From Bdellovibrio sp. (GTDB lineage: Bacteria > Myxococcota > SpSt-1050), in the NCBI GenBank assembly GCA_020725805.1, contig DYEF01000029.1, positions 1 to 58,260 of the forward strand: 58,260 nt of DNA, read 5' to 3'. The notes beneath the pieces were generated by a model. It was given only the letters and a program-made list of their open reading frames with translations, was not told the origin of the DNA and made no database searches. Within the stretch, counting starts at the first letter, position 1; each line of letters opens with the position of its first letter. Positions 25,266 to 46,014 of this stretch are shown in pieces. The position numbers and the translations under genes were made by a program.

Positions 25266-25288
25266 GCGGTATCCCAAAGGAGGATAAG

Positions 25289-27550
25289 ATGCGTTCAAAC
25301 TATCTGAGTTGTTTTATTGTCCTGTTTCTGTTTCTGGCTACAGGGTGCAGTGAAAGCGGTGTTGTAGGTGAACAGGATTCGTCCGGGACAGATACTATCG
25401 CCTCGGATATCATCTCATCAGATGCAAGACAGGATGTCCAGTATGGCGACTCCGTATCGGATACCCTGCCCGACGGAGAGCTGCGGGAGTGTATGAGCGA
25501 TAAGGATTGCGTCTCTCCGTATAAAAAGTGCAATATGGCAAAAAATATATGTGTCGAATGTCTGTACAACAGTGATTGTCTGACGGATTACATCTGTGAC
25601 AACAACAGCTGCAAAAAGGCGACAACAGAGTGCGAGACCGACGGGGAATGCGAGAAGGGAAAGATCTGCGAGGGCGGCAAGTGTCAGACCGGCTGCAGGT
25701 CCGTAAGGGATTGCCCCGAGAAGATGCTCTGTGACCTGAGCAAGCAGCCGTTCGGTGAATGTGTTCAGTGTATCAAAAAGGAGGACTGTCAGGAGAATTT
25801 CAACTGTATAAACGGCCAGTGCGTCTTTTACTGCACGGACAACAATGACTGCAACGGAAGGTTCTGCAATCTGACGACACACAAGTGTGTGGACTGCCTC
25901 AAGGACGGAGACTGCCCCCTCAAGACGATATGCGACAGCCTAAACAGGTGTGTGGAGGGGTGCAGGTCCTCGAGAGACTGCACACCGCTTCTCTGCGATA
26001 CCTCAAAGGGCGAGAACGGGAAGTGCGTCGAGTGTCTGAAAAACGAAGACTGTCAGGACATAAACAAGGTCTGCAACGACGGGGTATGTGTATTCAGATG
26101 TGACGGTGATGAAGACTGCACAGGACAAAAGTGCGACAAGACCAGCGGAATCTGCGTGGACTGCCTCATAAAGTCGGACTGCAAACTCGGATTCATCTGT
26201 ATAAACAAGGTCTGTGTAACCGGTTGTGAAGACACAAGAGACTGCCCTCCTGATCTTCCGGTCTGCAAGACCGATATCGGAGAACACGGCTCCTGTGTGA
26301 TGTGCGACAATGATGAGGACTGCGGGAGCTCGGAGAAGTGTGTCCAGAACAGCTGTGTGAAGGTCTGCAAGTCGGATAATGACTGCGTAGCAGGGTTCTG
26401 TGACCTCGTATCCGGCAAATGCGTCGAGTGTCTCAAGGACAGCCAGTGCATGATCAATATGGTCTGTGTAAACAGGTCGTGCACCCCGGGATGCAGCAAG
26501 GATAAACCCTGTGCAGGTACCTACAAGTGTGACCTGTCGGTAACTCCCGGCAGATGCGTCGAATGTCTCGAAAAGAGCGACTGTCTTGCAGACGGGGAGT
26601 GTATCGACAACAAGTGCAAATACCCCGGAAAGCAGTGCGGCGAGGCCTGCAAGGAGACCAAAGAATGTGCAACCGGCCTCAAATGCAGCTTCCTCTTCCA
26701 GCAGTGCCTGCCCGAATGTATCGACAATACCCAGTGCCCCAATCAGGACTGCATCAACTTCGGAGCCGGCGGGACCTGCATGAGCTGTGGTCCGCCCAAA
26801 TGTGACCCGGAATGCAAACAGGACGAGGAGTGCGTAAACGGCAAGTGTATCAGGAAGTGTTTCCCGCCCTGTGATTTCGGATATATCTGCAACAACGGAT
26901 ACTGCGAGGCCGCACAGACAGGTTGCAACCCGCCCTGCCAGAAGGATTCTTTCTGCTATGACGGCAGCTGTATGAAATATAACTACGGGACCTGTCCGGT
27001 GGGTATGCTCTATATTACCGAGACAAACAGCTGCATCGACCAGTTCGAGGCATCTCTAAAGAGCGGAGACATAGGAAAAGATGACGGGACAACCACAACG
27101 GCTATTGTTCAGTCGGTAAACGGGGCGAAGCCTCTCGTATATGTTACATACTATCAGGCAAAGAAGATGTGCGAAAACTCCGGCAAGAGGCTCTGCAAGG
27201 CAACCGAGTTCACTCAGGCCTGTGACGGACTATTAAATTTTGTATATCCCTACGGGAATACCTACGATGCCGCTGCCTGCAATACGGGTAATTCCTCCGC
27301 CCCCGAGGCGGCACTGTGCGGCAGCTTCGTCAGATGCATCTCTGTTTACGGCGTCGTGGATATGAGCGGGAATGTCTGGGAGTGGACAGACTCGATGTAC
27401 TCCTCGTCAGGCGACAGAATGATAATGGGCGGAAGTTTTGTGAGCGCCGCCGAAAATACCGCCTGCAAATCAGAGCTCAACGCAGTAACCGGTCAGCCGC
27501 TCCCTCTCACCGAGAAGAGGAATACTCTCGGTTTCAGGTGCTGCAAATAG
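25289..27550 (+). CDS. Cys-rich repeat lipoprotein with FGE-sulfatase-type domain
   Basis: The 753-aa product has a lipobox (LATGC, Cys about 20), a short Asp/Ser linker, then a very Cys-rich region (about 70-560) built of modules of the form C-x-x-D-x-DC-x-C-x-C-V-x-C. Four modules make a higher unit of 88-89 residues that repeats three times, starting at Cys136, 225 and 313. The C-terminal domain (about 570-753) is of the formylglycine-generating/sulfatase-modifying type, with VDMSGNVWEWTDS and a terminal LGFRCC. Such domains in surface proteins are often non-enzymatic. The start at 25289 is set by AAAGGAGGA; an in-frame TTG upstream is ignored. Confidence 0.85.
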   Translation: MRSNYLSCFIVLFLFLATGCSESGVVGEQDSSGTDTIASDIISSDARQDVQYGDSVSDTLPDGELRECMSDKDCVSPYKKCNMAKNICVECLYNSDCLTDYICDNNSCKKATTECETDGECEKGKICEGGKCQTGCRSVRDCPEKMLCDLSKQPFGECVQCIKKEDCQENFNCINGQCVFYCTDNNDCNGRFCNLTTHKCVDCLKDGDCPLKTICDSLNRCVEGCRSSRDCTPLLCDTSKGENGKCVECLKNEDCQDINKVCNDGVCVFRCDGDEDCTGQKCDKTSGICVDCLIKSDCKLGFICINKVCVTGCEDTRDCPPDLPVCKTDIGEHGSCVMCDNDEDCGSSEKCVQNSCVKVCKSDNDCVAGFCDLVSGKCVECLKDSQCMINMVCVNRSCTPGCSKDKPCAGTYKCDLSVTPGRCVECLEKSDCLADGECIDNKCKYPGKQCGEACKETKECATGLKCSFLFQQCLPECIDNTQCPNQDCINFGAGGTCMSCGPPKCDPECKQDEECVNGKCIRKCFPPCDFGYICNNGYCEAAQTGCNPPCQKDSFCYDGSCMKYNYGTCPVGMLYITETNSCIDQFEASLKSGDIGKDDGTTTTAIVQSVNGAKPLVYVTYYQAKKMCENSGKRLCKATEFTQACDGLLNFVYPYGNTYDAAACNTGNSSAPEAALCGSFVRCISVYGVVDMSGNVWEWTDSMYSSSGDRMIMGGSFVSAAENTACKSELNAVTGQPLPLTEKRNTLGFRCCK

Positions 27551-29605: not shown

Positions 29606-29971
29606 TTAATCTGATTCAGGAAAAGATTCTTTAAGTTTTTTCTTTAGTTCAGGGAGTTCGTTTTTTACTATATTCCACACAATTTCATAATCAACAACGA
29701 AGTAGCCATGAATTAAACGATGCCTAAGCCCAATAATTTGTGACCATTGTATTTCTTTGTGTATTTCCTGTATATGTTTTGGAATTTTATTAGAAGCCTC
29801 TCCGATAACCTCAAGATTTCTCAAGATAGCATCGATTGTCTTCGAATCTTTTAAGAATTCCTCATAGGACAACCCTTCAATATAGGACTCGATTTTCTGA
29901 ATACTATCCAGAATATCCGCAACGAATAATTTCCAGTCTCTTTTAGACATAGTTGAGGTCTTTCTGAACAC
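29606..29971 (-). CDS. hepT: HepT-like HEPN ribonuclease toxin
   Basis: The 121-aa product is a HEPN/DUF86 protein. The RX4HXY catalytic motif is complete as RHRLIHGY (about residues 87-94), the hallmark of the HepT toxin, an RNase that is neutralised when its MNT partner adds AMP to the Tyr of this motif. The gene overlaps its partner mntA by 29 bases, the usual order of antitoxin first. It is AT-rich like the island around it. Confidence 0.92.
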   Translation of the reverse strand: MFRKTSTMSKRDWKLFVADILDSIQKIESYIEGLSYEEFLKDSKTIDAILRNLEVIGEASNKIPKHIQEIHKEIQWSQIIGLRHRLIHGYFVVDYEIVWNIVKNELPELKKKLKESFPESD

Positions 29972-30239
29972 TTTCCCAAAGCTTTGGTTTTTGCTTTATT
30001 GCATTATAAGTCAGAAGGTCGACTCTTACCTCTAAAATTTTCTCTAAATAATCAGCCAGCTCAATAAACTCAAGTCCTATTGGTCTTTCAAATTCCACCA
30101 GAATATCAACATCGCTTATTTCTGTATTCTCTGCTCTTGCATAAGAACCAAATATTCCGATTCTGGATACACCATACTTTTCTCTCAGCTCATCCTTGTG
30201 TTTACTTAAAATCTCTTTTATATTTTCAACTGTTTTCAA
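29943..30239 (-). CDS. mntA: MntA-like nucleotidyltransferase antitoxin
   Basis: The 98-aa product is a minimal nucleotidyltransferase. The GSX10DXD motif is intact: GSYARAENTEISDVD at about residues 31-45. In MntA/HepT systems this enzyme AMPylates the toxin. It starts the two-gene unit and overlaps hepT. The ATG has only a weak ribosome-binding site. A type VII toxin-antitoxin role is inferred from the family. Confidence 0.92.
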   Translation of the reverse strand: MKTVENIKEILSKHKDELREKYGVSRIGIFGSYARAENTEISDVDILVEFERPIGLEFIELADYLEKILEVRVDLLTYNAIKQKPKLWESVQKDLNYV

Positions 30240-30310
30240 AAATCTGCTCCTTCTATGATATTTATCTCTTCCTTGGTTAACTAATACAACTTATATACCA
30301 TAATGTCAAT

Positions 30311-30500
30311 CTAATGTCCCATCCAACGGCCATCCACAATCCTAATCTCCTCTTCTGTCAAATTTTAAAGTTTATAGACCATTCCATCAATCTGCCGTTC
30401 ATATTCTTTGACCTTTGCTTGCTTGGCTTCGTTTTGTAAATAATCATCATCTTTTGTTATCGCAAGGATTTTATCTACAAGGTCAATAAAGGGTTGTTGT
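30311..30500 (-). pseudogene. broken C-terminal copy of an Eco57I-like methyltransferase
   Basis: Read on the minus strand this stretch encodes DLVDKILAITKDDDYL, then KQAKVKEYERQIDGMVYKL, a stop codon, and NLTEEEIRIVDG. It is closely similar to the last 60 residues of the methyltransferase encoded at 32317-36027 (ELVDKILAITKGEDYI, VKEYERQIDQLVYELYGL, TEEEIKIVEG). It has an internal TAA, no start and no upstream remainder of the gene. It is a relic of a second or earlier methyltransferase C-terminus, now separated from the intact gene by the TcmP fusion gene. Confidence 0.85.
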
Positions 30501-30550
30501 TGAAATTTATAATCTTAAACGACCAATATTTAATCATATCGAAGTTATTC

Positions 30551-32320
30551 TTAACTTTTCTTCTCTATAAAAATATCTTTGGTGTTATATATACTTGATG
30601 GAGTACCAAACTTTATGTGATATTCTATATTGTTCTTTTTACAGAAATTTGTTAATTTGTTAACCATCTCTTTGTAAAACTCCTCGCTGTTTTTCCATAA
30701 CGATTGAAGATTATTACTATAATTAGCCAATCTGTTATAGTTTAGTTTTCCAAATATTATTTTTTTAACAAATTTAATATTTTCAAGAATAAATTCTATA
30801 TTGTCTGCTGTCTCATCTAATTCAATTGTAGGGTACGGTTCCATGCTTACCCATGTATTTAACCCGTATTGAGATAGTTCTTTTAATGAATCTATTCTCT
30901 TCTTATACGGTGCTGAAAATGGTTCGTATTTGTTTCTAAAACTATCATTCAACGAAACCAGAGTGATACCATATTCATTAGTCTGCAAAAATTTTTCACT
31001 ATTTAAAATTTCTGGAGGATAAACTCCTTTTGTCAGAGTGGTAACTTTAATCCCCTCTCTATTTAATCTTTCAATTATCTTCAATGTAAGTTCTTTTATT
31101 TCAGGAACTAATTCTTTTTTTTCTGAATCATACATAAATGGATCAGACATAAAACAAAGGTGAACAAAATCAATCTCATCTTTGTACTTTGGAATTTCTT
31201 GCTCTAAAAGTTCCAAAGCGTTTGCAGCAATTCTCGGCATTCTCCAATCCTCATAATTCTTAACCCAACCAAACTTTCTTGCCATCATCATTGCATAGCA
31301 TGGGAATTTACATCCGTGTTTGCATCCTGTAATATGGTTGATAGTCCAATTGCCATATTCAACCTTGGTCTTATAGAGTAGTGTTTTTTTTTCTATCTTT
31401 CCAATTCCTGAGTTAATATCAAGGATGTTCTCTTTATAGAAATCTTTTCCAAATAATGTAGGACCTATTTCTTTTTCCTTCTGTCTGCTATACACATCTT
31501 TTATTATATTTGTGATTGTGGTCTTTTTCGAAGCGAACAAAAGATAGTATAAAATATCATTTCTGTCAGGATATTTTATATCATACCCAATTACTTTTAA
31601 ATTTTGTGATGTGAATACTACAACATAATCTTCTAAAATCTTTCTGCGGTCTGCATTAATAATATTAACATCGTCGCCAATGAACTCTTCCAATGTTTTT
31701 ACCGTCTTTAATTCCTTCACATTCAAGGCTTCACCACGGTGTTTTTTTCTGGCTACACCACTTGTTCTTGTAACTCCTTCTAAAATGTAATTAAACAAGA
31801 TGTCTTTGGGGTTTTGTAACTTTACTATCTCCTGCATTGTGATTTTCTTTATTTGCAATCCGGTAGGGTCTACTAGAATAAAAAGAGGATGTTGATTGGT
31901 ATTATTTATTGATCTTACAATCTGCGTTATAACTTTATTACAGTCGTCATTGAAAAAACATACTTTAACATTTTTAAGTGAGTTTTCGGATATGTATTTT
32001 TCAACTATTCCCTTCAAATGATTAAAGTTCTTTTTGTTTTTCTCAACTAAGAATATTTTGAATTTCAAATTACTCTTGAAACTGTTTTTCTTGCTAGCGA
32101 TTTTTTTAAGAAAAATAATGGGGGAACCATCTCTTTTATTTCCATTGTCAATATATTCGCCTCTCCCAGCAAATAAATCCACAATATACCATTCATTTTG
32201 TACCCAGTCTTGTTTATTCCAAATGGTAAGCCATATATCAAATACCTTTTCTAATACCTCAAGTTTTGTCTTTGTAGATGGTCTATTGCTTATATCCCAT
32301 AAACGATTTTGGTTTTTCAT
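30551..32320 (-). CDS. TcmP-like methyltransferase-fold protein fused to a three-Cys (radical-SAM-like) domain
   Basis: The 589-aa protein has two halves. Residues 1-300 resemble the three-Cys-motif partner protein TcmP, with a Rossmann-type motif DLFAGRGEY (48-56) and a DPTG motif (151-154) as in SAM-dependent methyltransferases. Residues 315-589 hold TGC-KHG-CKFP-CYA, that is Cys333, Cys337 and Cys341 in a CX3CX3C spacing, followed by SDPF, TTLTKG and SMEPYP segments as in radical-SAM/spore-photolyase-like proteins. The usual radical SAM spacing is CX3CX2C. The partners are normally separate genes, so this is a natural fusion. It is translationally coupled to the methyltransferase by ATGA at 32317-32320. 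Substrate and function are unknown. Confidence 0.75.
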   Translation of the reverse strand: MKNQNRLWDISNRPSTKTKLEVLEKVFDIWLTIWNKQDWVQNEWYIVDLFAGRGEYIDNGNKRDGSPIIFLKKIASKKNSFKSNLKFKIFLVEKNKKNFNHLKGIVEKYISENSLKNVKVCFFNDDCNKVITQIVRSINNTNQHPLFILVDPTGLQIKKITMQEIVKLQNPKDILFNYILEGVTRTSGVARKKHRGEALNVKELKTVKTLEEFIGDDVNIINADRRKILEDYVVVFTSQNLKVIGYDIKYPDRNDILYYLLFASKKTTITNIIKDVYSRQKEKEIGPTLFGKDFYKENILDINSGIGKIEKKTLLYKTKVEYGNWTINHITGCKHGCKFPCYAMMMARKFGWVKNYEDWRMPRIAANALELLEQEIPKYKDEIDFVHLCFMSDPFMYDSEKKELVPEIKELTLKIIERLNREGIKVTTLTKGVYPPEILNSEKFLQTNEYGITLVSLNDSFRNKYEPFSAPYKKRIDSLKELSQYGLNTWVSMEPYPTIELDETADNIEFILENIKFVKKIIFGKLNYNRLANYSNNLQSLWKNSEEFYKEMVNKLTNFCKKNNIEYHIKFGTPSSIYNTKDIFIEKKS

Positions 32321-35300
32321 AAGCCGTCTCCTTCCACAATTTTTATTTCCTCTTCGGTCAAACCGTAGAGTTCATACACCAGCTGGTCAATCTGGCGCTC
32401 GTATTCCTTGACCTCTGCCTGCTTGGTCGGATTATCAATATAATCCTCACCCTTTGTTATAGCAAGGATTTTATCTACCAATTCTTCTATTTGCTTTTCT
32501 ATTTGCTCGTTCGCGAAAATAATTGGAGGAATGGGGATTCTTTCAATTAAAATTTTTTGTAATCCTCTACTTCCTGAACCTAATTTTATAGAATATCCAT
32601 TTTCTAATAAATATTCACCAATTTTGCTGTTTAGAGTTCCAAGAAAATATTTTTGATTATTCCCTGACATAAAAAAAGTTGTTTTATCTAAATAAAATTC
32701 TTTAGTAGTGAAAGAAAACCTTGGATAATTTTTTGTTCCATCAAAATAAATTTTTATTGTTTCAGAATAAACCACCTTTTCCTTCTCAAACTCGGAGTAG
32801 TAGGCAATCTGATCCTGTGTTTCAAACCATTTATTGCCTGTTTTTTTTCGTGCATTAAAACCAAGTTTAGGATACTTCTTACCTGATTGTTCAAGTTGTC
32901 TTATATCAAAATTATTAAGGAAATACTTCTTTAAGGCTGGAAATTCGCTAATATCCAAGTTTAGAGCAGGAAAAGTACCAATCACCCACAACCCCGCCCA
33001 TTCATAATAATACCTTTTGATATCCCTTCCTCGCAATATGGGCTTGATAACGGCTTCGGTGCGTTTTCTTTCTTCTTTGTCCTTGCAATTTGCCAGTATC
33101 TCGTCTCGCTTTTCTGTGCTGATGATAAAGGCGTCGTTCAAACCAGTTAATACTCCACGGTAAATATTTACATCCCAGTCTCTGAGCGGCTTACCGATTC
33201 GCTCTATTTTCTCCTTGAGCCGTTGCTCGGCGTTGCTTCCAATGAACCACGCATCTTTGGTGAGTCTCTCAATCACAACACCGCTATTTGTTAATTCACT
33301 ATGCAGGTCAACAGACTCTTCATCTCTTCTCTTGCTTATTGTAACCGCTCGCAGATTATAAGTTAATTCTTTATTAATGCCCTTTGCAAGCTTATCTATA
33401 AAATCCATCTGCTCTCTCTCTGTTTTTAATTTCATCTGCTTTGAGAAATGTATCTGACCTGAAGCCTTCTTTCTTTTTATATCGGACTTTTTTATCAGTA
33501 AGATATTTGTATCAACAGTTGCGTTCTCAAAAACATCTGGTCCAAGGTCAATTAGTATCAGTGGATTATAATTTGTGAAAAATTCTCTTAACTTCTCGCC
33601 ATATCCTGCACGCATCCACTTGTTTGATGTAATATAACAGAGTAATCCACTTTCTTTTAATAAGCTTATACCTTTCTCATAAAAGAGACAATAGATATCA
33701 CCCATTCTATCAAATGTCTCAAAATTTTGCTCTTTATATAAATCTGCGTATTTCTCTCCTTTTACACTATTATTACTCTCTTTATTAAGTTTATCTCCAT
33801 AATAAGCCTTTTGAAGCTGAATATACGGAGGATTTCCAATCACAATATCAAATCCATCACTTATTCCAAACATCCATTCGGGGTCGAACCAGTCGGCTGA
33901 TTTGTTTGTATCGTATGGATTCCATTGTGCGATTTTCTCTGTTGCTTCTGCCGGAAAACCACTGCTTTTAAGCATATTTGCAAGTTCTGTTCTTAACTCT
34001 GAGTCTTTCTTCTTGAGTTTATCTTTCTCTTTGGTATTTATAGTTGTAAAGTATTGATTCCTTATCTTTTTAATCTCTTCTTCTAATCTTCTGACCTCGC
34101 CTGACATCAGGCTTAATTGTTTTGGTCTTGGCAAACCTATCAGTGTATTTGCAGAGACAAACTTTGTCTCAAGGTTGGGAAGCGGCTCTATGCTAAGATT
34201 AGGTTTTGTCCTGTCAACCTTTTCATCCACAAGGAGTGAGATAAAGAATCTGAGTTTTGATATCTGAATGGCTATGGGCTGGTTGTCAACACCATATATA
34301 CAGTTCTGAATGAGATAAAGCTTTCTTCCATAGTCAAGTTCATTAAGGGTAAAGCTCTCTTCTATTCTCTGTATTATCTCCTGTCTTATCTTGGGGTCTG
34401 TTATCTGATTTGCTACTTTGACCTGCTCTGCCTTCCATCCTTCGTTATGAGGATCAAGTTTATGAAGTATATTAACAAGCATCTGGAGTGCACCCATTGG
34501 AAAAGCACCTGAACCAACAGCAGGGTCAAGGAGTTTCAGGTTATGAATGGCATTTATTAATCTTTCTGTAGTTACTTTATCAAAGGGGTTTGCATCATCT
34601 TCATAGGAAAAAAGCTTCTCAAGTGCAGAATCGCTTATATTACTTTCTGCTAATTGTGTTTTGAAATACTCCTTAAGGGATTCTCTTACCATATAGTCCA
34701 CTATCTCTCGTGGTGTATAGTAACTACCCGTTGCCTTTCTTGCAGTTGTTGCTGTTTCAGGGTTGTAAGAAGCAAGGAGATTTTCAAAGACCCTTCCAAG
34801 AAGCTCTGGGTCAAGGGCTACCTCTTTATCTACTGGTGTGTTTTCATCTATGGTAAAGTTATAAGAACTCAGTATATTAACAATACCTCTGACCTCGTAT
34901 TTCTTATTTTTTGTACCGTACTCTTCGTTTAAATTAACTTCTTGCTTATCTGAAAAGAATAAAAAATTCGGGACAACGGGCTGTTTCTTTGGGTCATCAG
35001 AAAAACCATCTATGCGAATCTCTTTGCCTGTTTCATTTGATTCATCATCCTTAGCCTTATCATGGCATTCAAAAAGACCACCGTTTAAAAAAGGAATATC
35101 ATTAAAGAGTTCTTTCATTCTGTCAGGCTCTTTAAATAGGTTATGATGTCTGAAATAGTAATGATTCATATAGTCTTTATTAAGATAGCCCTTATATCTT
35201 TCTTCTCTACGGAATTTTCTCTGCTCAATGGGTGTATTTAAGGTGGCAAAGAAGAGGTTCTGCAGTATGGCAAGGTAATAGGTACCTTTGTCTGGCGAAA

Positions 35301-36027
35301 TGTCTTTTAAAATTTCTTTAAGGAATCCTAAATCAAAGAGTTCCCTTTTGACTATCCCTTTCTTACTCATAAACCATATGAATATTAGCCTTGTGATGAG
35401 CCTTATTAGGCCGATGTTTCTGCCGCTTGGCTCTGCCTCTGCCTCGGGTGGGAATTTTGCCTCTTTCAATGCCCAGAAATACCAGTTGGCAACCTCCTGA
35501 TAAAACTCCTTTGTGACCTTTTCGACTGAGAAGGCTTCTTTTATACTCTTTATCGAGGAATAATCACAACTCCCCACATACTCAATAAACGTCCTGTTTG
35601 GTTCACCTTTACCAACATAGTAAGTAAATCTCTTGTAATGACTCCACTCTCTTTGTGTGCCTTTGTATTCGGGATAGATAAATGAGAATCTGAAATTCTG
35701 AAATTCATCATAATAGACAAAAATACCGCCGGAATATCCGATATTATCGCTGAGTTTTAAGATCTTTTTTGAATGTTCGTATTGCCTTCTCTTACTTGAT
35801 CGCTCTGTAAGTTGGCTTTTTACCTTGAATGCATAAATCACGATACTCTCATCATCATTTAACTTTATATCACCAATCTTTTCACCATCAGTAAAATTAT
35901 CATCCTTGAGCACGTGCCCTTCTTCATCAGAAGGCTTAAAATTGCGGCTTGCAGTTCTGAAATATTCCTTCAACAACTCTTTATTGAAATTATCTCTAAG
36001 TTTAGTTAGTTTATCAAAGGTGTTCAT
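32317..36027 (-). CDS. Eco57I-like adenine DNA methyltransferase (type IIG-like)
   Basis: The 1236-aa protein has an N-terminal region (about 1-180) with a possible degenerate nuclease core (AFKVK near 66-70 and LTERSSKRRQ), a helical region, the methyltransferase domain with TGSYYTP, DPAVGSGAF (about 502) and GNPPYIQ (about 731), and a C-terminal target-recognition and coiled region ending in EEEIKIVEG. NPPY indicates N6-adenine methylation. It lies 17 bases after the PLD-helicase gene and overlaps the TcmP fusion, so all three form one operon. BREX and DISARM partner genes are absent. Whether the N-terminal nuclease is active is not clear, since the expected acidic residue before KxK is not obvious. 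Confidence 0.9.
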   Translation of the reverse strand: MNTFDKLTKLRDNFNKELLKEYFRTASRNFKPSDEEGHVLKDDNFTDGEKIGDIKLNDDESIVIYAFKVKSQLTERSSKRRQYEHSKKILKLSDNIGYSGGIFVYYDEFQNFRFSFIYPEYKGTQREWSHYKRFTYYVGKGEPNRTFIEYVGSCDYSSIKSIKEAFSVEKVTKEFYQEVANWYFWALKEAKFPPEAEAEPSGRNIGLIRLITRLIFIWFMSKKGIVKRELFDLGFLKEILKDISPDKGTYYLAILQNLFFATLNTPIEQRKFRREERYKGYLNKDYMNHYYFRHHNLFKEPDRMKELFNDIPFLNGGLFECHDKAKDDESNETGKEIRIDGFSDDPKKQPVVPNFLFFSDKQEVNLNEEYGTKNKKYEVRGIVNILSSYNFTIDENTPVDKEVALDPELLGRVFENLLASYNPETATTARKATGSYYTPREIVDYMVRESLKEYFKTQLAESNISDSALEKLFSYEDDANPFDKVTTERLINAIHNLKLLDPAVGSGAFPMGALQMLVNILHKLDPHNEGWKAEQVKVANQITDPKIRQEIIQRIEESFTLNELDYGRKLYLIQNCIYGVDNQPIAIQISKLRFFISLLVDEKVDRTKPNLSIEPLPNLETKFVSANTLIGLPRPKQLSLMSGEVRRLEEEIKKIRNQYFTTINTKEKDKLKKKDSELRTELANMLKSSGFPAEATEKIAQWNPYDTNKSADWFDPEWMFGISDGFDIVIGNPPYIQLQKAYYGDKLNKESNNSVKGEKYADLYKEQNFETFDRMGDIYCLFYEKGISLLKESGLLCYITSNKWMRAGYGEKLREFFTNYNPLILIDLGPDVFENATVDTNILLIKKSDIKRKKASGQIHFSKQMKLKTEREQMDFIDKLAKGINKELTYNLRAVTISKRRDEESVDLHSELTNSGVVIERLTKDAWFIGSNAEQRLKEKIERIGKPLRDWDVNIYRGVLTGLNDAFIISTEKRDEILANCKDKEERKRTEAVIKPILRGRDIKRYYYEWAGLWVIGTFPALNLDISEFPALKKYFLNNFDIRQLEQSGKKYPKLGFNARKKTGNKWFETQDQIAYYSEFEKEKVVYSETIKIYFDGTKNYPRFSFTTKEFYLDKTTFFMSGNNQKYFLGTLNSKIGEYLLENGYSIKLGSGSRGLQKILIERIPIPPIIFANEQIEKQIEELVDKILAITKGEDYIDNPTKQAEVKEYERQIDQLVYELYGLTEEEIKIVEGDGL

Positions 36028-36044
36028 AAAACAAAACCCCTATT

Positions 36045-39000
36045 TTAATTGTTCACTTTTATATTCTCTATTGCAATAATTACATCTCTTGCCTTATCCT
36101 CGTGCTTTATCTTTTCATACTTCAGATAATCCCTGCCAAGGTCTTCAATAAGAGATATAATATCTTCTTTGCTGTTTATCTCCTCAATCTTTCTGAGTGT
36201 ATAATCGGGCAAAGTTCCAAAACCAACAATATCCTCTTTGAGCATCCTTAGAAAATATTTGAAATCGTCAAAATCTTTATTCTTAAGTAATGTTTTAATC
36301 TTATTAAAGGCTTTTATCTCAAGCGTATTCTCCTTTTCTATGCCATTATGAGTCTGATATTTATTTTGGATTATCTTTTCATAACTCTGCCAGAATCTGT
36401 CCGTATTCCATTCGAGCCCCTTCTCGTCTTTATTACATTTTATCCTCTCTATAGCCTCCTCAACAAGAATTTCATCTGGTACAGCATTTTCAATCTCAGT
36501 ATTTATTGCCGCTGCAAACATCCTCTTCTTTTTGAAAAATACAATCATCTCATTTTTATCTGAGGACTTTGCAACCTTGATTCTGGGCGGATATTTGGTA
36601 ATTTTCTCAAAAATCTCTGGGTTCTCCTTTTTTAGTCTGAGATATTCAAGATATATCTTTGTGTAGATATTCTCTCCCTCAATCCTCTCAGGGTCTCCTC
36701 TTAGTCTATCGAATAGTTTTGATGGCTCGGGCTCTTCGTCTATATCGAATATCTTTGCATCTTCACCAAGTGTATTGTGAATTATAAACATCTTCTGCTG
36801 GGCTATTGTCTTTGACTGGACTATATCTGCCCCTTTCTGAGTCGGGAAGAAGTTTACAATATAAAGTTTTTCAAAGACCTTCTTGCTTATCCTGTTTATT
36901 CTCCCGAGCCTCTGAATAACTCTTACGGGATTCCACGGGATATCATAGTTAATAACATATTGTGCCCTGTTGAGGTTTACTCCTTCTGATAACTTGTCTG
37001 TTGTAAGAAGTATTCTGTATCTGTCTTCCTGCTCTTTGTATGAGGCATCGAAGTTTTTATTGATCTCGTTCATCTCACTCTCAGAAAGACTACCATAGAT
37101 AGTTAAAACCTTTTCTTTGCCGAATTCCTTCTCCAGTTTCTCCTGCAGATGCTTTACAGTATCCGCATATTCGCTGAATATTACAAACTTTGGCTCCGGC
37201 TCACCTTTTTGTGGATTTGCCTGCATCAGGGCTTTTAGTTTTCTTATAAGACAATCTGCCTTGGGGTCGTTATCGGTCAGTTTAAGACTGTCAAGCTCGC
37301 TGAGCACTCGCTCGAACAGCTTGATATCGCTTTCGATGTGATTTTCAAATTTGTCTCTCAGTTCAAATTCATCTATCTTGTATATCTTGTTACTCTTTGG
37401 ACCTATTATACTTCCGTCTTTTAAGGATTTTGAATATTCAAGCAGAGTCTCTTCCATCTCTTCATCTGACATAGAATTCATTTTTTCAACAAGTTTTCTG
37501 TCGAGAATAAACTTTCTACGTTGTTTTATAAAGTCTCTGCATATTACAGTTACATTTCTGAAGTTTTCGAGACTCTTCTTGAATGCGCCAAATGAACTCT
37601 CGAACCTCTTGACAAGGAGTCTCTGCATAAATCCATACAGGTTTCTCTGCTGCTGAAACTCCCTGCTATCATCATCTCCGGTTCTTCTCTTCTCATAATC
37701 AAACGGTCTGTAAATCGCACCGTAAAACTTTCCACCATCTTCAAAACTGGCAAAATATTTTTCAATGACCCTTGAATAAAAATCCAGCTGTTTCTTCTCG
37801 AGTTCGAAATACCAGTCTGTCTTATCCTCGTTTGTCTGAGGGTCTGCCACCTTCGAGAGATTACCAACCTCACTTGCATATTCGGGAATCTTCTCGAGGT
37901 CTATCCTGTTTCGCCTGATTGTAACGGGTTCTATAATAGAGCGAATGGATTTTGAAATATATCTTGTGCTGTCCGCAAGCCTTTTCTTTTCAATTGTTTT
38001 AGTGCCATATAGACCTTCGTTGTAACTGATGGCTTTATCCCTCTTTTCTTTATTTGGAGAATTATAATTTTTAAGAATAAATGAGATCTTTCTGAGTTTA
38101 TTTTCGTATTGCATAAATCTGAGATATAGATTGCTCCCAAGGGTAATAGGAGATTTTTTTGGGTTCAGAAAGAGTCTCAAAAGATTAAGTATGTCGTAAG
38201 GATGATTATTAAATGGCGTGGCTGTAAGCAGAATTACCTTCTTGCCTCTCACAATATTTTTTAGTTGCTCATAAGACTCCGTATCATCATTTCTGAACCT
38301 GTGAGCCTCATCTACAATAACTACTTTTATATCCTTTCTTTTTGGGTCCCTTACGAATTTAAGTGGTTCTGTAAGATTACCACGAGAAAAGACCTTCCAG
38401 TCAAATAGCCTAAAATTATCCACATATTTTTTCCAGCCACTATCACTCGTCTCATCTCCGATAAGAGGTGGGGGGCAGATTACTATCCCCCTTTCTTTGA
38501 GTCTTCTTGCAAGTGCACAGGCAATAACCGTCTTTCCCAGTCCAACCACATCGGCTATCAGAACACCGTTGTAATCCTGAATAATCTTATACGCCTGAGC
38601 AATTGCATCTACCTGATATCTATAGGGCTTATATCCAGCATTATTTAAAATCTCCTCAATCGTCTCTGTGTTTTCATCGCTTTTTATTGAATTAATATAG
38701 TTATGAAGGACAATACAATATGCCTCAAATGGTGTAATCTCTTTTAGGAAAGTATCTTCTCTGATTGTATCAAGAAGCCTTCTTCTCGTCTCTTCATATT
38801 CTGTAATTTCAACGGAATTGTTCCAGAGTTCATCAAAATATCTCTCAGCCTCATCAAACCCGAAATCACTTATCTCTACATTAAACTCGTTCTGCGAGGT
38901 CAGTCCCGCAGCTGTAAGATTACTCGAACCGGTAATAAATAGCTTATTTCTGCCAATTTGCTCATCTTTTAGATAAAAGAGATACAACTTCGAATGATTC

Positions 39001-39386
39001 GGTTCTACCGTCTTTCTGATAATCAGTCTGTTATTTTCAAGAAGGCTTAGGAAATATCCTGCCTGCTCATAAACCTCTTTCGAGTCAAACTTCTCAGACC
39101 TCAGTGATGTACAGACTGATTTTATGAATTCGTCTGTAATTTCTTCATTGCTAGGATTGGTATCGTAAGTAGTCTCAATTAATCTGAAATTGTGATAATC
39201 CACCTTGAGCCCAACAAGGACTTTGAGGATTGTATCGTTATTCTCTTTAAGTGACTTGTATAACCTGTCCGTCCCTGAGAAATAGAAGAATGCCGTAAGA
39301 AATTTGAGCTCCTTGCTGTTTTTTACTAACTCCTCAATCCTTTTTAAGAGGTCGTTGTTTTTGCTATTAGTAATAAAATAAGCCAT
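36045..39386 (-). CDS. PLD-like nuclease fused to SF2 helicase
   Basis: The 1113-aa product starts with a phospholipase-D-type nuclease domain (about 1-175) with a single HSK motif at 131-133 and GSSN at 153-156. An SNF2-like helicase follows: GLGKT at 282-286 (Walker A), DEAH at 359-362, TATPF, and the C-terminal RecA lobe with QRLGRINRIS (motif VI). The remainder is a charged helical region. One HKD motif means it probably works as a dimer. It resembles ATPase/nuclease subunits of restriction systems such as the NgoAVII type. It is the first gene of the defence operon, with a promoter at 39427-39455. Confidence 0.9.
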   Translation of the reverse strand: MAYFITNSKNNDLLKRIEELVKNSKELKFLTAFFYFSGTDRLYKSLKENNDTILKVLVGLKVDYHNFRLIETTYDTNPSNEEITDEFIKSVCTSLRSEKFDSKEVYEQAGYFLSLLENNRLIIRKTVEPNHSKLYLFYLKDEQIGRNKLFITGSSNLTAAGLTSQNEFNVEISDFGFDEAERYFDELWNNSVEITEYEETRRRLLDTIREDTFLKEITPFEAYCIVLHNYINSIKSDENTETIEEILNNAGYKPYRYQVDAIAQAYKIIQDYNGVLIADVVGLGKTVIACALARRLKERGIVICPPPLIGDETSDSGWKKYVDNFRLFDWKVFSRGNLTEPLKFVRDPKRKDIKVVIVDEAHRFRNDDTESYEQLKNIVRGKKVILLTATPFNNHPYDILNLLRLFLNPKKSPITLGSNLYLRFMQYENKLRKISFILKNYNSPNKEKRDKAISYNEGLYGTKTIEKKRLADSTRYISKSIRSIIEPVTIRRNRIDLEKIPEYASEVGNLSKVADPQTNEDKTDWYFELEKKQLDFYSRVIEKYFASFEDGGKFYGAIYRPFDYEKRRTGDDDSREFQQQRNLYGFMQRLLVKRFESSFGAFKKSLENFRNVTVICRDFIKQRRKFILDRKLVEKMNSMSDEEMEETLLEYSKSLKDGSIIGPKSNKIYKIDEFELRDKFENHIESDIKLFERVLSELDSLKLTDNDPKADCLIRKLKALMQANPQKGEPEPKFVIFSEYADTVKHLQEKLEKEFGKEKVLTIYGSLSESEMNEINKNFDASYKEQEDRYRILLTTDKLSEGVNLNRAQYVINYDIPWNPVRVIQRLGRINRISKKVFEKLYIVNFFPTQKGADIVQSKTIAQQKMFIIHNTLGEDAKIFDIDEEPEPSKLFDRLRGDPERIEGENIYTKIYLEYLRLKKENPEIFEKITKYPPRIKVAKSSDKNEMIVFFKKKRMFAAAINTEIENAVPDEILVEEAIERIKCNKDEKGLEWNTDRFWQSYEKIIQNKYQTHNGIEKENTLEIKAFNKIKTLLKNKDFDDFKYFLRMLKEDIVGFGTLPDYTLRKIEEINSKEDIISLIEDLGRDYLKYEKIKHEDKARDVIIAIENIKVNN

Positions 39387-39426
39387 TTTTTACCTCTCAC
39401 AATGATTTTTGGCTATGTTGTGAATC

Positions 39427-39455
39427 TGTATATCAATTAACGGCATAATAGTAAA
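39427..39455 (-). promoter_or_regulatory. sigma-70-like promoter of the defence operon
   Basis: On the minus strand TTTACT (39450-39455) and TATACA (39427-39432) are 17 bases apart, about 40 bases before the helicase start at 39386, which has GAGAGGT as ribosome-binding site. The stretch also serves as the divergent upstream region of marC. Confidence 0.5.
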
Positions 39456-39522
39456 GAATTAAACCCAACCTTTACGAATTTTTGTATTGAATTTGTCTCC
39501 TTCTGTGGTATTAAACGGTTCT

Positions 39523-40179
39523 ATGGATTTCGACCTTAAGGATTTTCTGGTATTCTCCTCGATGGCGTTCTCCACGATATTCTTTGTGGTCGACCCGATT
39601 GGTCTTGTACCGATATTCATCTCGATGACCCAGTCGGATTCGCCGGAGAAGAGAATTTCAATTGCCAAGAGGGCTACTGCTGCGGCCGGAATTATACTGG
39701 TAGTATTTGCCATCTGCGGAAAACTGATATTCTCCGCCTTCGGGATTACACTCGCCTCCTTCAAGATCGCCGGCGGAGTCCTGCTCTGGTTTATCGCCCT
39801 CGATATGGTTAGGGCTAAACAGACGAGGGTCAAGACGACTCCCGAGGAGGAGCAGGAGGGTATCGAAAAGGAGGATGTGGCACTCATTCCGCTTGCACTG
39901 CCGATGCTCTCCGGACCCGGTTCAATTTCTACGGTAATGGTCCTTATGGGTCAGGCAAAGGACTGGCTATACTTTATCCCGGTCTTTATCTCAATTTTTC
40001 TGACCTGCCTTATCACCTATTTTATGCTGCGCGGCGCCCAGTATATCCTGAAATACCTCCGTCAGACGGGTCTAAAGATCATCATAAGAATAATGGGTAT
40101 GATTCTTGCAGCAATCGCCGTCCAGTTTATTATAAACGGCATATACGACGCCGTAAAAATGTATAGTCTGGTAATTTGA
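39523..40179 (+). CDS. MarC-family integral membrane protein
   Basis: The 218-aa product has six membrane segments and the family's typical N-terminal region DPIGLVPIFIS and central SGPGSISTVMVL. MarC proteins were once linked to antibiotic resistance, but their function is unknown. I place the start at ATG 39523, which gives the family-like N-terminus MDFDLKDF; an in-frame TTG at 39487 is possible. No clear ribosome-binding site precedes either. Composition returns to that of the main chromosome here. Confidence 0.88.
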   Translation: MDFDLKDFLVFSSMAFSTIFFVVDPIGLVPIFISMTQSDSPEKRISIAKRATAAAGIILVVFAICGKLIFSAFGITLASFKIAGGVLLWFIALDMVRAKQTRVKTTPEEEQEGIEKEDVALIPLALPMLSGPGSISTVMVLMGQAKDWLYFIPVFISIFLTCLITYFMLRGAQYILKYLRQTGLKIIIRIMGMILAAIAVQFIINGIYDAVKMYSLVI

Positions 40180-40190
40180 TAAAAAGTGAT

Positions 40191-40196
40191 TATAAT
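40191..40196 (+). promoter_or_regulatory. TATAAT -10 box giving a probable leaderless mRNA
   Basis: A perfect TATAAT ends 6 bases before the GTG start at 40203, so transcription should start at or next to it. No consensus -35 box is visible at the right distance, so the call rests on the -10 box and position. Confidence 0.4.
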
Positions 40197-40202
40197 TGAA
40201 TT

Positions 40203-40745
40203 GTGAGCAGGTATTTTTATATTTTGGCCCTCTTCCTTTTTGCCCTGATTTCAGGGTGCGCCACTCCCACACCTTCGGGTAAGACAGATTCCCCGGTTGT
40301 AAACATTAAGAAGGTAAAGGTAGAAAATGTTGCGATCTTCGAAACCCCTGCTGCCCTGAAGGAGTTTACCAAATCCACCCCCGAATACTCGGAAGCCATA
40401 CTTCTTGCAAACGAACTTTTGGGAGATGCCGAGATAAGGAAGAGACTCGAAAACTACGGATATACCCCGTTTGTCTCAGGAGACCTTGACAGCGACGGGA
40501 AGGACGAATCGGTCTTCGTAATCCTGAACCGGAAGATTCCCGAACTCATCATCATCAAAAAGAACATTCAGGATGAGTGGAAGGAGCAGTTCTCAATGAA
40601 ACTGAACTCCTATGCCCAGATAAAACTCTCTGACCCCTCGGTCGGGCTCTTCGGGAGTCCGTGCGTAATCGTAACAAATATCAGCCTCAAAGCCGTCAGC
40701 AATATCTGCTGGGACGGTATGAAATACATCTCCGTGGATTACTGA
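40203..40745 (+). CDS. lipoprotein, unknown function
   Basis: The 180-aa product starts with GTG and has a lipoprotein signal with lipobox LISGC (Cys about 19). The mature part holds a segment with SGDLDSDGKDESVFVI, resembling a short calcium-binding or FG-GAP-type Asp motif, inside a beta-rich domain. No enzyme family is recognised. There is no ribosome-binding site; see the -10 box at 40191. It converges with the gene at 40747, leaving one base between the stop codons. Confidence 0.75.
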   Translation: MSRYFYILALFLFALISGCATPTPSGKTDSPVVNIKKVKVENVAIFETPAALKEFTKSTPEYSEAILLANELLGDAEIRKRLENYGYTPFVSGDLDSDGKDESVFVILNRKIPELIIIKKNIQDEWKEQFSMKLNSYAQIKLSDPSVGLFGSPCVIVTNISLKAVSNICWDGMKYISVDY

Positions 40746-40746
40746 A

Positions 40747-41550
40747 CTATTTACTCAGTACCGCATCCATCAGATTGAGGGGGCATTTGTAGATTTTGTA
40801 ATCTTTTATGAAAATCAGACTCTCCTTGTTTGCATCGGGGTACCTGATACAGACATCCTTCTCCCTGTGAAGAGTAAAGGTCTCTATCGCCTGATTATGC
40901 CAGTAAAAGATATATGCATCCGTGCAGCTTTCACCGATCTTGCTGTTGTTTGCAAAGATGATATCGTATTTGTTTACAAACCTGAAATCTGTCCCGAAAC
41001 CGAGTTTTGCAAGCTCGTTTGTCTTCGTCCCGTATACATACCCGCCGGAATATCTGTTTGCAAAGAGCAGCAGAGATGATTCTTCCGAGAAACCATAAGT
41101 CTCTACCTCCCCCAGAAAAGGGGCGATCTCCCTCTCCTTGCCGTCTATAACACAATATACCTTTCCGTTCTTCTGTATGCAATCCTCCTTCTTTACAAGA
41201 CTCTTTGCCATTTTGGAGGGCGAATAGATATCTATCTCCCTGATAATACCACGGTTATAAAACGGTTCGAACTGTATACTATTCTGAGAAACCTGTTTTA
41301 CGGAAGAACTAACTACCCTCGAATAGTATATCTGCCTTACCTTCTTACCTTCAATCCCGTAAATAAATATCCCGTTGCCGCCTTCACCGACTATTATGAG
41401 ATTGTCCGAAACATAGGTATCAAAAAATGCCCTCTCCGGCTTTATCCCTTTAGGCAGTTTAATCTCCCACTCCTTGCAGACTTCCTCACCATAAAGGGCT
41501 GCTGAGTAAAACATTACACATATAATTATTACACAAAATCCCTTATGCAT
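40747..41550 (-). CDS. exported protein, possible beta-propeller-like
   Basis: The 267-aa product has a signal peptide (about 1-21). The mature part is beta-rich with repeated short segments such as NLIIVGEGGNGIFIYG, SSLLLFANRYSGG and ESLIFIKDYKIYKC, which could be propeller-like blades. A few Cys occur in pairs. I recognise no family. It begins 4 bases after glmS ends and is likely the last gene of the grpE-dnaK-dnaJ-glmS operon. Confidence 0.65.
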   Translation of the reverse strand: MHKGFCVIIICVMFYSAALYGEEVCKEWEIKLPKGIKPERAFFDTYVSDNLIIVGEGGNGIFIYGIEGKKVRQIYYSRVVSSSVKQVSQNSIQFEPFYNRGIIREIDIYSPSKMAKSLVKKEDCIQKNGKVYCVIDGKEREIAPFLGEVETYGFSEESSLLLFANRYSGGYVYGTKTNELAKLGFGTDFRFVNKYDIIFANNSKIGESCTDAYIFYWHNQAIETFTLHREKDVCIRYPDANKESLIFIKDYKIYKCPLNLMDAVLSK

Positions 41551-41554
41551 ATTT

Positions 41555-43378
41555 TTACTCGACCGTTACGCTCTTTGCGAGGTTTCTGGGCTGGTCCACG
41601 TCGGTCCCCTTCATATCGGCGATATGATATGCCATCAGCTGAAGCGGGAGACTGTTTACGAAGGGCTGGAAGAACTCATCTGTCTCATCAACCTCAATCG
41701 CAAAGTCGAGAAGCCTCTTCGTCTCTTCATCGCCCTTTGTAATGACACCGATGAGAATCCCTCCTCTGGACTTTGCCTCCAAAATATTGGAGATAATCTT
41801 TTTGAGATTGCTGCCCCTGTTTGCAATTACAAGGACAGGGACATCCTCGTCGATAAGTGCAATAGGCCCGTGCTTCATCTCTCCCGCCGCATATCCCTCT
41901 GCGTGAATATACGATATCTCCTTGAGCTTGAGGGCGCCCTCGAGGGCGACGGGAAAGTTTATCCCCCTTCCGAGATAGATGAAATCCCTCGAGCGTATGA
42001 ATCTGGGGGCTATCTCCTTTATGTAACTTTCTGTTTTAAGGGTATTTTTCAGAATGCCGGGCATTCTGGAGAATTCATTTATGAGCCTTTTCCTCTCCTC
42101 TTCGCCAATGGTACCCCTTCTGGAAGCAAAGAAGAGCGAGAGCATCAGAAGTACCTCTGTCTGGGCGATAAATGCCTTTGTGGAGGCGACACCTATCTCT
42201 ATGCCGGCACGGGTATAAATCACGTTATCTGCAAGGCGGGCGATCGAGGAGTTCATAACGTTGCATATTGCAAGAGTCGGTATCCCGAGTTCCTTTACGT
42301 CTTTCAATGCACCGAGTGTATCGGCCGTCTCTCCGGACTGTGAGATGAAGATTGCAAGGTCATCTTTTTTTAGCACCGGATTGCGGTATCTGAATTCGCT
42401 AGCAAATTCTGCCTCGGCCGGAATCTTCGATATCTGCTCAAAGTAGTATTTTCCAATCAGTCCCGCGTGGTATGATGTCCCGCAGGCAACGATGATTATC
42501 CGGCTGAAATCCATCGTCCTTACTGCCAGTTCGTCGGGCAGAAGCTCCGAGTTCTCCCTGTCTATTCTGCCGAGCATCGTATCGGTAAAGACCTTCGGTA
42601 TCTCGAATATCTCCTTGTGCATAAAGTGTTTGTGTCCCTCTTTTTCTGCAACAGACGGACTCATATCGACGGTCTTTATCTCCGGTTTTATCTGTACACC
42701 GTTTCTGATATCGAATATCTCCGTTTTGTCCCGGGATATCTTTGCAATCTCGTTTTCGGAGAGCGTAATGATTCTGCGGGTGTACGGCAGAAGGGCCGGA
42801 ATGTCGGAGGCGACGAAATTCTCTCCTTCGCCTACGCCGATTATCAGCGGTGAAAAATTCTTTGCGACTATGAAGTAATCCGGTTCCTTTTCGCTTACTA
42901 CGGCAATGGCAAATGCCCCTTCCAGTCGGCGGATAGCGGATATAACTGCCTTAAAAAGGTCCTCACCCTTACTGAGATAACTGTCTATGAGATGTGAAAT
43001 AACCTCTGTATCCGTCTCAGACCTGAACACACTCCCCTTTGAGATGAGTTCCCTCTTGAGTTCCGCATAATTTTCGATAATACCGTTGTGCACCACCGCA
43101 ACACCGTTTACCATATGCGGGTGGGCATTGTTCTCTGACGGTCTGCCGTGAGTCGCCCACCTTGTATGCCCTATCCCGAGATTCCCGGAAATCTTCTCCT
43201 TCCCAAGAAGTGACTCGAGCGACGAAATCTTTCCGACGGCACGTGCAATCCTGAGCTCTGCACCGTCCAGCACAGCAATACCGGAGGAGTCATATCCCCT
43301 GTATTCGAGCCTCCTGAGCCCGTCGATAAGGACTTCCTTTGCATCCTTTGGACCGATATATCCCATTATCCCGCACAT
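41555..43378 (-). CDS. glmS: glutamine--fructose-6-phosphate aminotransferase
   Basis: GlmS makes glucosamine-6-phosphate from fructose-6-phosphate and glutamine, the first step toward UDP-GlcNAc. The 607-aa product has the N-terminal nucleophile Cys2 (MCGIMGYIG), the glutaminase domain with RWATHGRP, two SIS sugar isomerase domains (SQSGETADT near 355) and the terminal [13 protein letters not shown]. The start overlaps the end of the DnaJ-like gene by 13 bases. No glmS ribozyme-like leader is expected here because the gene is inside an operon. Confidence 0.97.
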
Positions 43379-44187
43379 CTCTTACTCTCCTGTCTGGTTT
43401 CCCTGATACTGATACTCACATCCCTGTTTTCGATAAGTTTACTGAGCCTTATCACCGTATTCTCCCTTATCTGGTCGGGAAGACTAATCTCGAATATTCT
43501 CCCCATTATCTCGACATAGAATCTCTTCTGCCCGGAGACCCTTTCGAGCACGAGACTGAGGGAGATCGAGTCTTTTGATACAGATATGTTCTCTTTTTTA
43601 AGCTCCACAAGGAGCAGAATCTTCCTGCCCAGCAAAAGGTCTCTTCTCTTCTCCTTCGTCCTGACCCTCTTCTTTACAAACGAATATGCCGGTATTCTGA
43701 AGACCTTTCTTCTGTATATGCTTATCCTGCCGTTTCCCATACAGTGTCTGCAGGTCCTGTTGTACCCGAAACAATAGGGACATTCGGCGGATTCGGGAAT
43801 AAATACGATCTTCTCCGTCTCACAGGGTATCTCTCCCTCTTCTATTCTTACCTCCTGAGTACTGAGCAGCAGGTTTTCGAATACAGACCGAAGAGCGTCC
43901 ATCGCCTCGGTGATACGCAGTCTGAGAACGGAATTTATGACAGGGGTCAGTGCACTTACTGTATCCCTGAGCTGCCTTCCGATGACGGAGCTGTCGTAGA
44001 GGAGTCTCTTCCGCGGGTCGGAGAGGACAGAGTATGCAAAACTTATCTTCTTGAATATATCCTCAGAGCCTTCATCCCTGTTTATGTCGGGATGATATGT
44101 CCTTGCAAGCCTTCTGTAGGCCCTTTTGATTTCTTCAGGAGTGGAAAAACGGCTAACACCCAGAATATCATAGAGATTCTGACCCAT
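43366..44187 (-). CDS. DnaJ-like co-chaperone with reduced zinc finger
   Basis: The 273-aa product has a complete J domain with HPD (about 33-35) but only two of the four CXXCXGXG-type zinc motifs: CPYCFG and CRHCMGNG (about 133-152). There is no Gly/Phe-rich region and the C-terminal substrate domain is short. It starts 10 bases after dnaK ends, so it is the likely DnaK partner in this operon. It is shorter and more degenerate than DnaJ (about 375 aa), so I leave the symbol empty. Confidence 0.88.
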
Positions 44188-44196
44188 AATACGTCG

Positions 44197-46014
44197 TCAG
44201 CTCTTTTCCTTAGGCCCCGAATAGATAGTCTCGGCAATTTTGTAGGCGGCCTTTTCGAACTCGGGATATAAGGCCTTTATCTTTTCGAGGTCATCTGCTT
44301 CTATTGCCGATTCGAGTTCTGTTATCCGGGAGAGCAGGTCAACCCGGATGTCATCGGTTATCTTCGAGGCAAATTCGTCGAGCGATTTTCTGACTGAATA
44401 GATAAGACCTTCTGCGTCGTTCTTGATGTCCACGAGTTCCTTCTTCTTCCTGTCTTCCTCCCTGTACTGCTCCGCATCGGCTATCATACGGTCTATCTCT
44501 TCCTGCGAGAGACCGGTGGACGGCATTATTCTCATCGACTGTTCCTTGTTTGTGCCGAGGTCCTTTGCCGTCACGTTGACAATCCCGTTGGAATCTATAT
44601 CGAATGTAACCTCGATCTGCGGAACCCCTCTGGGAGCGGGAGGTATTCCTATCAGCTGGAATCTGCCCAGGCTCTTATTGTCCTTTGCAAGCTCTCTCTC
44701 GCCCTGAAGGATGTGAACCTCGACGAAGTTCTGATTGTCCTGCGCGGTTGAGAATATCATCGATTTTTTTGCAGGAATCGTCGTGTTTCGCTCTATAATC
44801 TTCGTAAAGACTCCGCCTGCGGTCTCGACTCCGAGCGAGAGCGGTGTGACGTCCAGAAGCAGGACATCCTTGACGCTCCCCTTCATAACCGCACCCTGAA
44901 TCGCAGCGCCTACCGCAACTACCTCATCGGGATTTATATCCTCACGCGGTGCCTTTCCGAATATCTCCTGAACCTTCTGTTTGACACGGGGCATCCTTGT
45001 CATTCCGCCGACAAGGATTATCTCGTCTATCTGCCCGAAGCTTATACCGGCATCCGATACCGCCTTCTGGCAGGGTTCGGCAAGTTTATCAATGAGGTCG
45101 GATACCATATTCTCAAACTGCTCCCTCGAGAGCGGGAGATTCAGATGAAGCGGACCGTTCTCCGATGTGCATATAAACGGCAGGGTAATCTCTGTCTCCA
45201 TAAGCGAGGAGAGTTCGTGCTTTGCCTTTTCGGCAACCTCCTTGATTCTCTGAAGGGCGATCTTGTCCTCGGAGAGGTCTATGTTGTGTTCCTTTTTGAA
45301 GGAGTCCAGAATATAATGCATTATCCGTCTGTCGAAATCCTCACCGCCGAGATATGTATTGCCGTTTGTGGACTTGACCTCGTAGACTCCGTCCTCGATA
45401 GAGAGGATTGTGATATCGAATGTCCCGCCGCCCAGATCGAAAATCGCTACCGTCCCTCTACCCTTCTTCTCCACACCGTATGCAAGTGCCGCGGCCGTCG
45501 GCTCATTTATGACTCTTAAGACCTCCAGCCCCGAAATCTGACCCGCCACCTTTGTAGCCTGCCTCTGCGCATCATTGAAATATGCGGGACAGGTAATAAT
45601 CGCCTCCTTTATCTGCTCACCCAGATACTCCTCTGCGTACTGCTTCATTGTCGAGAGAATCATTGCGGATATCTCGGGAGGTGAAAAGCGCTTACCCCTT
45701 ACCTCAACCCAGGCATCCTGATTATCCGAGGCAACGATACTGTACGGAACGAGTTTCTTTATCTCCTGCACTTCCGGGTCATCGAATTTACGCCCCATAA
45801 GTCTCTTTATGGCGTAAACAGTGTTTTCCGGATTTGTAATTGCCTGACGCTTTGCTATCTGACCAATAAGTCTGTCACCCATTTCGCTGAAAGCAACGAC
45901 CGACGGGGTGGTTCGTCCACCTTCGTTGTTCGGAATGACCACAAACTCCTGCCCTTCCAGAATTGCAACACAGGAGTTGGTCGTGCCAAGGTCTATACCT
46001 ATTATCTTACCCAT
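44197..46014 (-). CDS. dnaK: molecular chaperone DnaK
   Basis: The 605-aa Hsp70 has the N-terminal [13 protein letters not shown], the phosphate motifs [13 protein letters not shown] and [10 protein letters not shown], the linker [11 protein letters not shown] and a substrate domain with a helical lid. It ends in YSGPKEKS, a shorter tail than that of E. coli DnaK. It lies 9 bases after grpE and 10 bases before the DnaJ-like gene, so all three parts of the chaperone cycle are co-transcribed. Confidence 0.98.

Follow-up and report, generated by a model that had tools for sequence, protein, structure and literature searches.

The stretch of DNA analysed here (the window; 58,260 nucleotides) carries three open reading frames on its minus strand, in the order helicase, methyltransferase and fusion protein; coordinates of these genes, their domains and their neighbours are collected in Table 1. 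A sequence-only reading had described them as a three-gene operon behind one promoter. The junctions are as tight as it stated, with 17 bases between helicase and methyltransferase genes (36028-36044) and a 4-base ATGA overlap between methyltransferase and fusion genes (32317-32320), and profile searches bear out its domain assignments, namely a PLD-helicase, an Eco57I-like methyltransferase and a TcmP fusion. The single promoter found no support: a scan of the 100 bases that precede the helicase gene (39387-39486, minus strand) for the sigma-70-type consensus, the only one scanned, returned no match. Judging by the gene spacing, we infer that the three genes are co-transcribed as one unit.

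Table 1. Features of the operon and of its immediate downstream neighbourhood.
Feature	Position	Strand	Evidence
HKD (PLD) nuclease + SNF2 helicase, first gene, 1113 aa	36045..39386	-	PLDc_2, SNF2/Helicase_C, PADLOC 'HKD+Snf2'
PLD-like nuclease domain	38823..39086	-	PF13091; HxK ... GSSN ... E motif (HSKLYLF, GSSNLT, QNEFNVEI)
SNF2/ResIII ATPase and Helicase_C	36888..38633	-	profile match
Eco57I/IIG-type adenine methyltransferase, 1236 aa	32317..36027	-	Eco57I 125 bits; PADLOC type IIG 581 bits
Eco57I methylase domain	33529..34305	-	NPPY motif; DPAVGSGAF just upstream in protein
TaqI-like C-terminal specificity domain	32530..33045	-	TaqI_C 25.1 bits, just below 26.5 cut-off
TcmP-radical SAM fusion, last gene, 589 aa	30551..32320	-	TIGR04474 + Radical_SAM; ATGA overlap
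TcmP domain, predicted class I methyltransferase fold, nearest RlmJ	31484..32278	-	D48-x-F-x-G-x-G54; D151-P152
Radical SAM domain, nearest solved fold spore photoproduct lyase	30803..31342	-	PF04055
C333-X3-C337-X3-C341-Y motif (CKHGCKFPCY)	31298..31324	-	invariant in 50/50 homologues
Decayed methyltransferase C-terminal tail	30326..30502	-	77% nt over 151 bases, in-frame stop
Second decayed methyltransferase tail, ends at MntA start	30245..30310	-	sequence comparison
MntA-like nucleotidyltransferase antitoxin, neighbour, probably outside system	29943..30239	-	profile match
HepT-like HEPN RNase toxin, neighbour	29606..29971	-	profile match

The operon consists of two modules, a helicase-methyltransferase pair and the TcmP-radical SAM fusion. 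The helicase retains a complete HKD-type nuclease motif (HxK, GSSN, E), as do most aligned relatives; the nearest homologues share 52-53% identity over the full length, and a scan of viral contigs with the helicase returned no relatives. The methyltransferase is of Type IIG, combining an adenine methylase with a specificity domain (IIG 581 bits, Eco57I 125 bits; the TaqI_C match is sub-threshold), and retains both methylase motifs, DPAVGSGAF and NPPY. At a putative PD-(D/E)XK nuclease site in its N-terminal region the protein reads AFKVK, close relatives AFEVK or AFEVT. The earlier view that this pair is restriction-like stands, and the pair recurs: both genes are found at most 4 kb apart in 14 other loci (L041-L044, L058-L061, L065-L068, L070, L071), whose hosts are Patescibacteria, Smithella, Cloacimonadota, Bacteroidota, Lactococcus, cyanobacteria, Deinococcus and Thermaceae. 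In most of them the helicase immediately precedes the methyltransferase; some have one or more intervening genes. On Lactococcus and Prevotella plasmids the pair is accompanied by partial methyltransferase genes in inverted orientation and by a DNA invertase of the Mpi type (L065, 5233-10038; L071, 8488-16618), an arrangement that suggests a switchable, probably phase-variable specificity. Downstream of the pair at the Smithella locus L059 (4564-14117) lie genes for an OLD-like ATPase and for a UvrD-like helicase, judged by eye to be Gabija-like.

Three groups of known systems resemble the pair. With Type IIG (LlaGI-like) and Type III restriction-modification (R-M) systems it shares the adenine methyltransferase, the C-terminal specificity domain and, as predicted here, helicase-driven cutting and self-marking, but nuclease and SNF2 translocase reside on a separate HKD protein and the additional TcmP-radical SAM fusion is present. 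DISARM class 1 (DrmD SNF2 and DrmMI) and ARMADA (PMC12458937) likewise pair SNF2 helicase genes with genes for DrmMI/PglX-like methyltransferases; the helicase of the window differs in being fused to an HKD nuclease, and no DrmA, DrmB, DrmC or YprA-type gene adjoins the pair. DISARM was rejected on the absence of core drmA, drmB and drmC among the operon's neighbours and on the helicase's DrmD score (169, cut-off 610). An HKD-Swi2/Snf2 fusion effector together with an N6-methyltransferase constitutes the core of the DUF499-centred Type-2 BREX-related (Hma-like) systems (PMC12839542). The genome of the window, in contrast, has no DUF499 ATPase, as PF04465 finds no match across the whole genome; the pair is therefore described as R-M-like and not filed under BREX, BR/Hma or DISARM.

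The third gene encodes a member of the TcmP family (TIGR04474, 114.7 bits; curated cut-off 53) joined to a member of the radical SAM superfamily (PF04055, 40.6 bits; cut-off 29.5), and the 'three-Cys', 'Fe-S' part of the sequence-only reading holds as the radical SAM cysteine motif. The canonical spacing of this motif is C-X3-C-X2-C; it is absent here, and X3/X3 is found in all 50 radical SAM sequences compared. Superfamily members with non-canonical cysteine spacing are known, and X3/X3 is compatible with membership. Two other assignments were discarded, the DUF5131 (Gp37/Gp68) family (22.3, cut-off 28.9) and the PA0069/Rv2578c radical SAM family (33.7, cut-off 360). Searches of PDB sequences with the fusion gave chance matches only. 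An AlphaFold2 model of the fusion (pLDDT 88.8, pTM 0.71) has its best matches in E. coli RlmJ for the methyltransferase half and in spore photoproduct lyase for the radical SAM half. The latter is the closest solved fold, yet it has the C-X3-C-X2-C spacing and shares 14% identity. For a separate model of the TcmP part (pLDDT 93.8) RlmJ again ranks first, at a TM-score of about 0.5, and other class I methyltransferases, including Trm1 and KsgA, are among the matches. TcmP retains motif I and an invariant D-P, followed by variable residues and not by DPP(Y/F). The modest TM-score and the lack of DPPY speak against membership of the RlmJ family (rRNA m6A methyltransferase); without DPPY, the sequence neither points to adenine-N6 chemistry nor tells which atom is methylated.

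TcmP followed by a radical SAM protein (rSAM) is a conserved gene pair in its own right. Searches found 27 loci in the GTDB species set, three more genomes among 380 of one phylum, 30 viral-contig loci (two of them remote) and one gut phage record; 50 distinct pairs were recovered. The two partners are conserved to different degrees: median pairwise identity over the 50 pairs is 19.5% for TcmP and 56.9% for rSAM, and C-X3-C-X3-C-Y is present in every rSAM. The window resembles the TcmP/three-Cys-motif pairs of TIGR04474 in having a TcmP above the NCBIfam cut-off with a Cys-motif radical SAM partner, and differs in that both form one protein. The fused form arose once according to the rSAM tree and is distributed over several phyla, which indicates horizontal movement. 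Searches of plasmid and phage proteins with the fusion yielded distant radical SAM or TcmP matches only, gut phage records excepted, one of which combines rSAM with Type III genes. Several viral loci have two TcmPs ahead of a single rSAM. In many viral loci (L089, L098, L101-L104) a small Cro/CI-type HTH gene precedes the pair, the resulting order being HTH-TcmP-rSAM-mod-res.

The TcmP-rSAM pair is found in operons with R-M genes of several classes. These are Type I genes (L021, L027, L085), IIG or Eco57I methyltransferases (L018, L025, L030, L031), Type III mod and/or res (L009, L010, L045, L077/L111, L089, L093, L097, L098, L101-L103), and m5C methyltransferases with a Type II-like endonuclease (L082). 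At L009 and L010 the fused gene has mod on one side and res on the other; in L010 both of these are broken. L011 (297-7748) combines in one operon an IIG-like methyltransferase, a Piwi protein (short pAgo-like), a SIR2-like protein and, after the methyltransferase, a TcmP-rSAM from which most of TcmP is missing. For the fused homologues, whose setting the earlier reading had named as a check on whether the operon is an accidental neighbourhood, the picture is divided: L009, L010 and the truncated L011 lie with R-M genes, whereas L006, L007 and L008 are operons without one. N6_Mtase or Eco57I genes are within about 6 kb of the pair in 8 of 28 genomes, compared with 0.95 expected (P = 1.4e-6), a test that used genome-wide Pfam searches, rounded genome sizes, gene counts merged by hand and a 6-kb distance chosen after the loci had been seen. 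Leaving out the genome of the window gives 7 of 27 (P = 1.6e-5), and tripling the base rate for island clustering gives P = 0.013. The statistical claim of an association rests on this test; the corresponding figure for R-M queries against the loci, 26 of 58, is descriptive, as the queries derive partly from those same loci. The R-M label switches 12 times along the rSAM tree, each switch being either a gain or a loss, and at least 9 of these changes are forced by well-supported (starred) branches. TcmP-rSAM has thus joined R-M operons repeatedly. The module is nevertheless probably self-sufficient, since for 30 of the 50 pairs in the tree no R-M gene was called in the same operon.

Within the window, the fusion gene appears to be a late arrival. 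Its G+C content is 0.30 (third position 0.29), compared to 0.37 (0.35-0.40) for the pair and 0.47-0.50 (0.50-0.60) for host-like neighbours, and it is located between the methyltransferase and two decayed methyltransferase tails, which are remnants of lost methyltransferase copies (30245-30502). From the lower G+C content and this position we infer that the fusion was inserted later into an already existing helicase-methyltransferase-(second methyltransferase)-MntA-HepT island. The neighbours of the operon are the MntA/HepT pair, TonB/TolR/TolQ-like genes and a MarC-like gene. Gene order is shared with G167, a genome of the same genus, from 39479 to 46849, and this synteny ends about 90 bases before the helicase start; the other flank is rearranged, so that G167 provides a breakpoint and not a clean empty site. 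We also note that the MntA/HepT-like pair (29606-30239, minus strand) lies directly downstream in the same low-G+C island and that its MntA-like protein matches PADLOC PDC-S09.

These results bear on the idea, put forward in the sequence-only reading, that helicase, methyltransferase and TcmP-rSAM form a dedicated defence system in which all three parts are needed. The tight gene spacing agrees with it, as does the viral contig L097 (1-10759), where an SNF2 helicase, Type III mod, res, TcmP and rSAM stand in a row; the helicase belongs to the PADLOC family of the window's own (C3a139), and this is the second case of that helicase family with TcmP-rSAM, the helicase N-terminus being cut by the contig end. 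Against it, neither TcmP nor rSAM occurs near any of the 14 other helicase-methyltransferase pairs, which rules out a conserved three-gene system and is the first of the two outcomes that the sequence-only reading had itself named as refuting. Conversely, no other fused homologue adjoins this helicase, no other TcmP-rSAM locus found adjoins a homologous pair, and the fusion is a later insertion. An indispensable trio is therefore the least likely of the alternatives, and very unlikely; what stands of the earlier proposal is that a methyltransferase-fold/radical SAM component is repeatedly added to R-M operons.

A different explanation takes TcmP-rSAM for an autonomous mobile set, such as cargo of prophages or an enzyme with which phages modify their DNA; it would enter R-M loci only because these lie in islands of gene turnover. 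Many TcmP-rSAM loci do reside on prophages or viral contigs without R-M genes, the fusion of the window has its own base composition and gene remnants on its flank, and among the searched genomes of its phylum the window's genome alone has TcmP-rSAM (1 of 193 for rSAM). Chance neighbours in an island would however hardly account for contiguous or overlapping junctions with R-M genes, for the mod-fusion-res order of L009 and L010, or for the repeated independent joining of R-M operons, and we consider this explanation rather unlikely.

The reading that we tentatively prefer is an R-M pair to which a nucleic-acid-modifying TcmP-rSAM module was later added within one transcription unit. The methyltransferase would mark host DNA at a sequence that its own C-terminal specificity region recognises, and the HKD-SNF2 protein would translocate along unmarked DNA and cut it. 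Variability of TcmP and constancy of rSAM suggest that the former, as the variable methyltransferase-fold half, may select the target, while the latter may perform a common radical step on the same nucleic acid. Expressed together with restriction, the module would then provide another modification, or a further line of defence, besides cutting. The fold matches leave room for other activities, as many other enzymes share RlmJ-like and spore-photoproduct-lyase-like folds; the missing DPP(Y/F) and the limited similarity to RlmJ likewise count against this reading. A broader version, that TcmP-rSAM represents a widespread, unrecognised class of R-M-linked hypermodification, in which a variable subunit picks the site, the C-X3-C-X3-C rSAM completes the modification and the window holds a natural single-chain form, is possible but doubtful.

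The association with unrelated R-M types is also what would be expected if the module watched over the R-M enzyme. PrrC shows genetic linkage to a type I R-M enzyme, which silences it and through which it is activated (PMC2610378). In a PrrC-like arrangement the fusion would be a back-up effector, held near the R-M enzyme and freed when a phage blocks restriction, that damages host tRNA or rRNA; the likeness of TcmP to RNA methyltransferases (RlmJ, Trm1 and KsgA among its matches) fits such a role. A guard would however be expected to keep a single partner, whereas TcmP-rSAM accompanies systems of Type I, IIG, III and m5C and frequently stands by itself, and the strong conservation of rSAM (57%) is unlike that of a fast-evolving toxin. 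We regard such a guard as improbable.

R-M pairs of this kind and the TcmP family are already known. The closest known relatives of TcmP-rSAM include the PADLOC candidates PDC-M30A and PDC-M41B, and the TcmP of the window matches the phage-defence candidate PDC-M30A. Of the 100 P. aeruginosa strains in one panel, 32 are reported to carry PDC-M30 (PMC10855318). In Sinorhizobium meliloti, the genes for the phage-defence helicase Hna and for a TcmP (SMa2243, SMa2245) are consecutive in a table of NolR-regulated genes, each being up about two-fold (PMC12445080). Our literature searches found no dedicated paper on DUF5131 or TcmP in phage defence. What is new relative to the papers searched is the fusion itself, the recurrent link of TcmP-rSAM to several R-M classes, the constant C-X3-C-X3-C motif and the split into a variable and a constant partner. 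To our knowledge, radical SAM enzymes have seldom been implicated in phage defence, viperins being an example. A nearly constant radical SAM half, a diverging methyltransferase-fold half and their repeated joining suggest an unrecognised step in R-M, and that the add-on represents a novel kind of modification enzyme is a genuine possibility. With both predicted activities in one 589-residue protein, the fusion is a good place to begin the search for the substrate.

Elsewhere in the window (25253-27550, plus strand), a 765-aa protein consists of repeated Cys-rich units and an end domain that, by eye, is of the formylglycine-generating-enzyme type.
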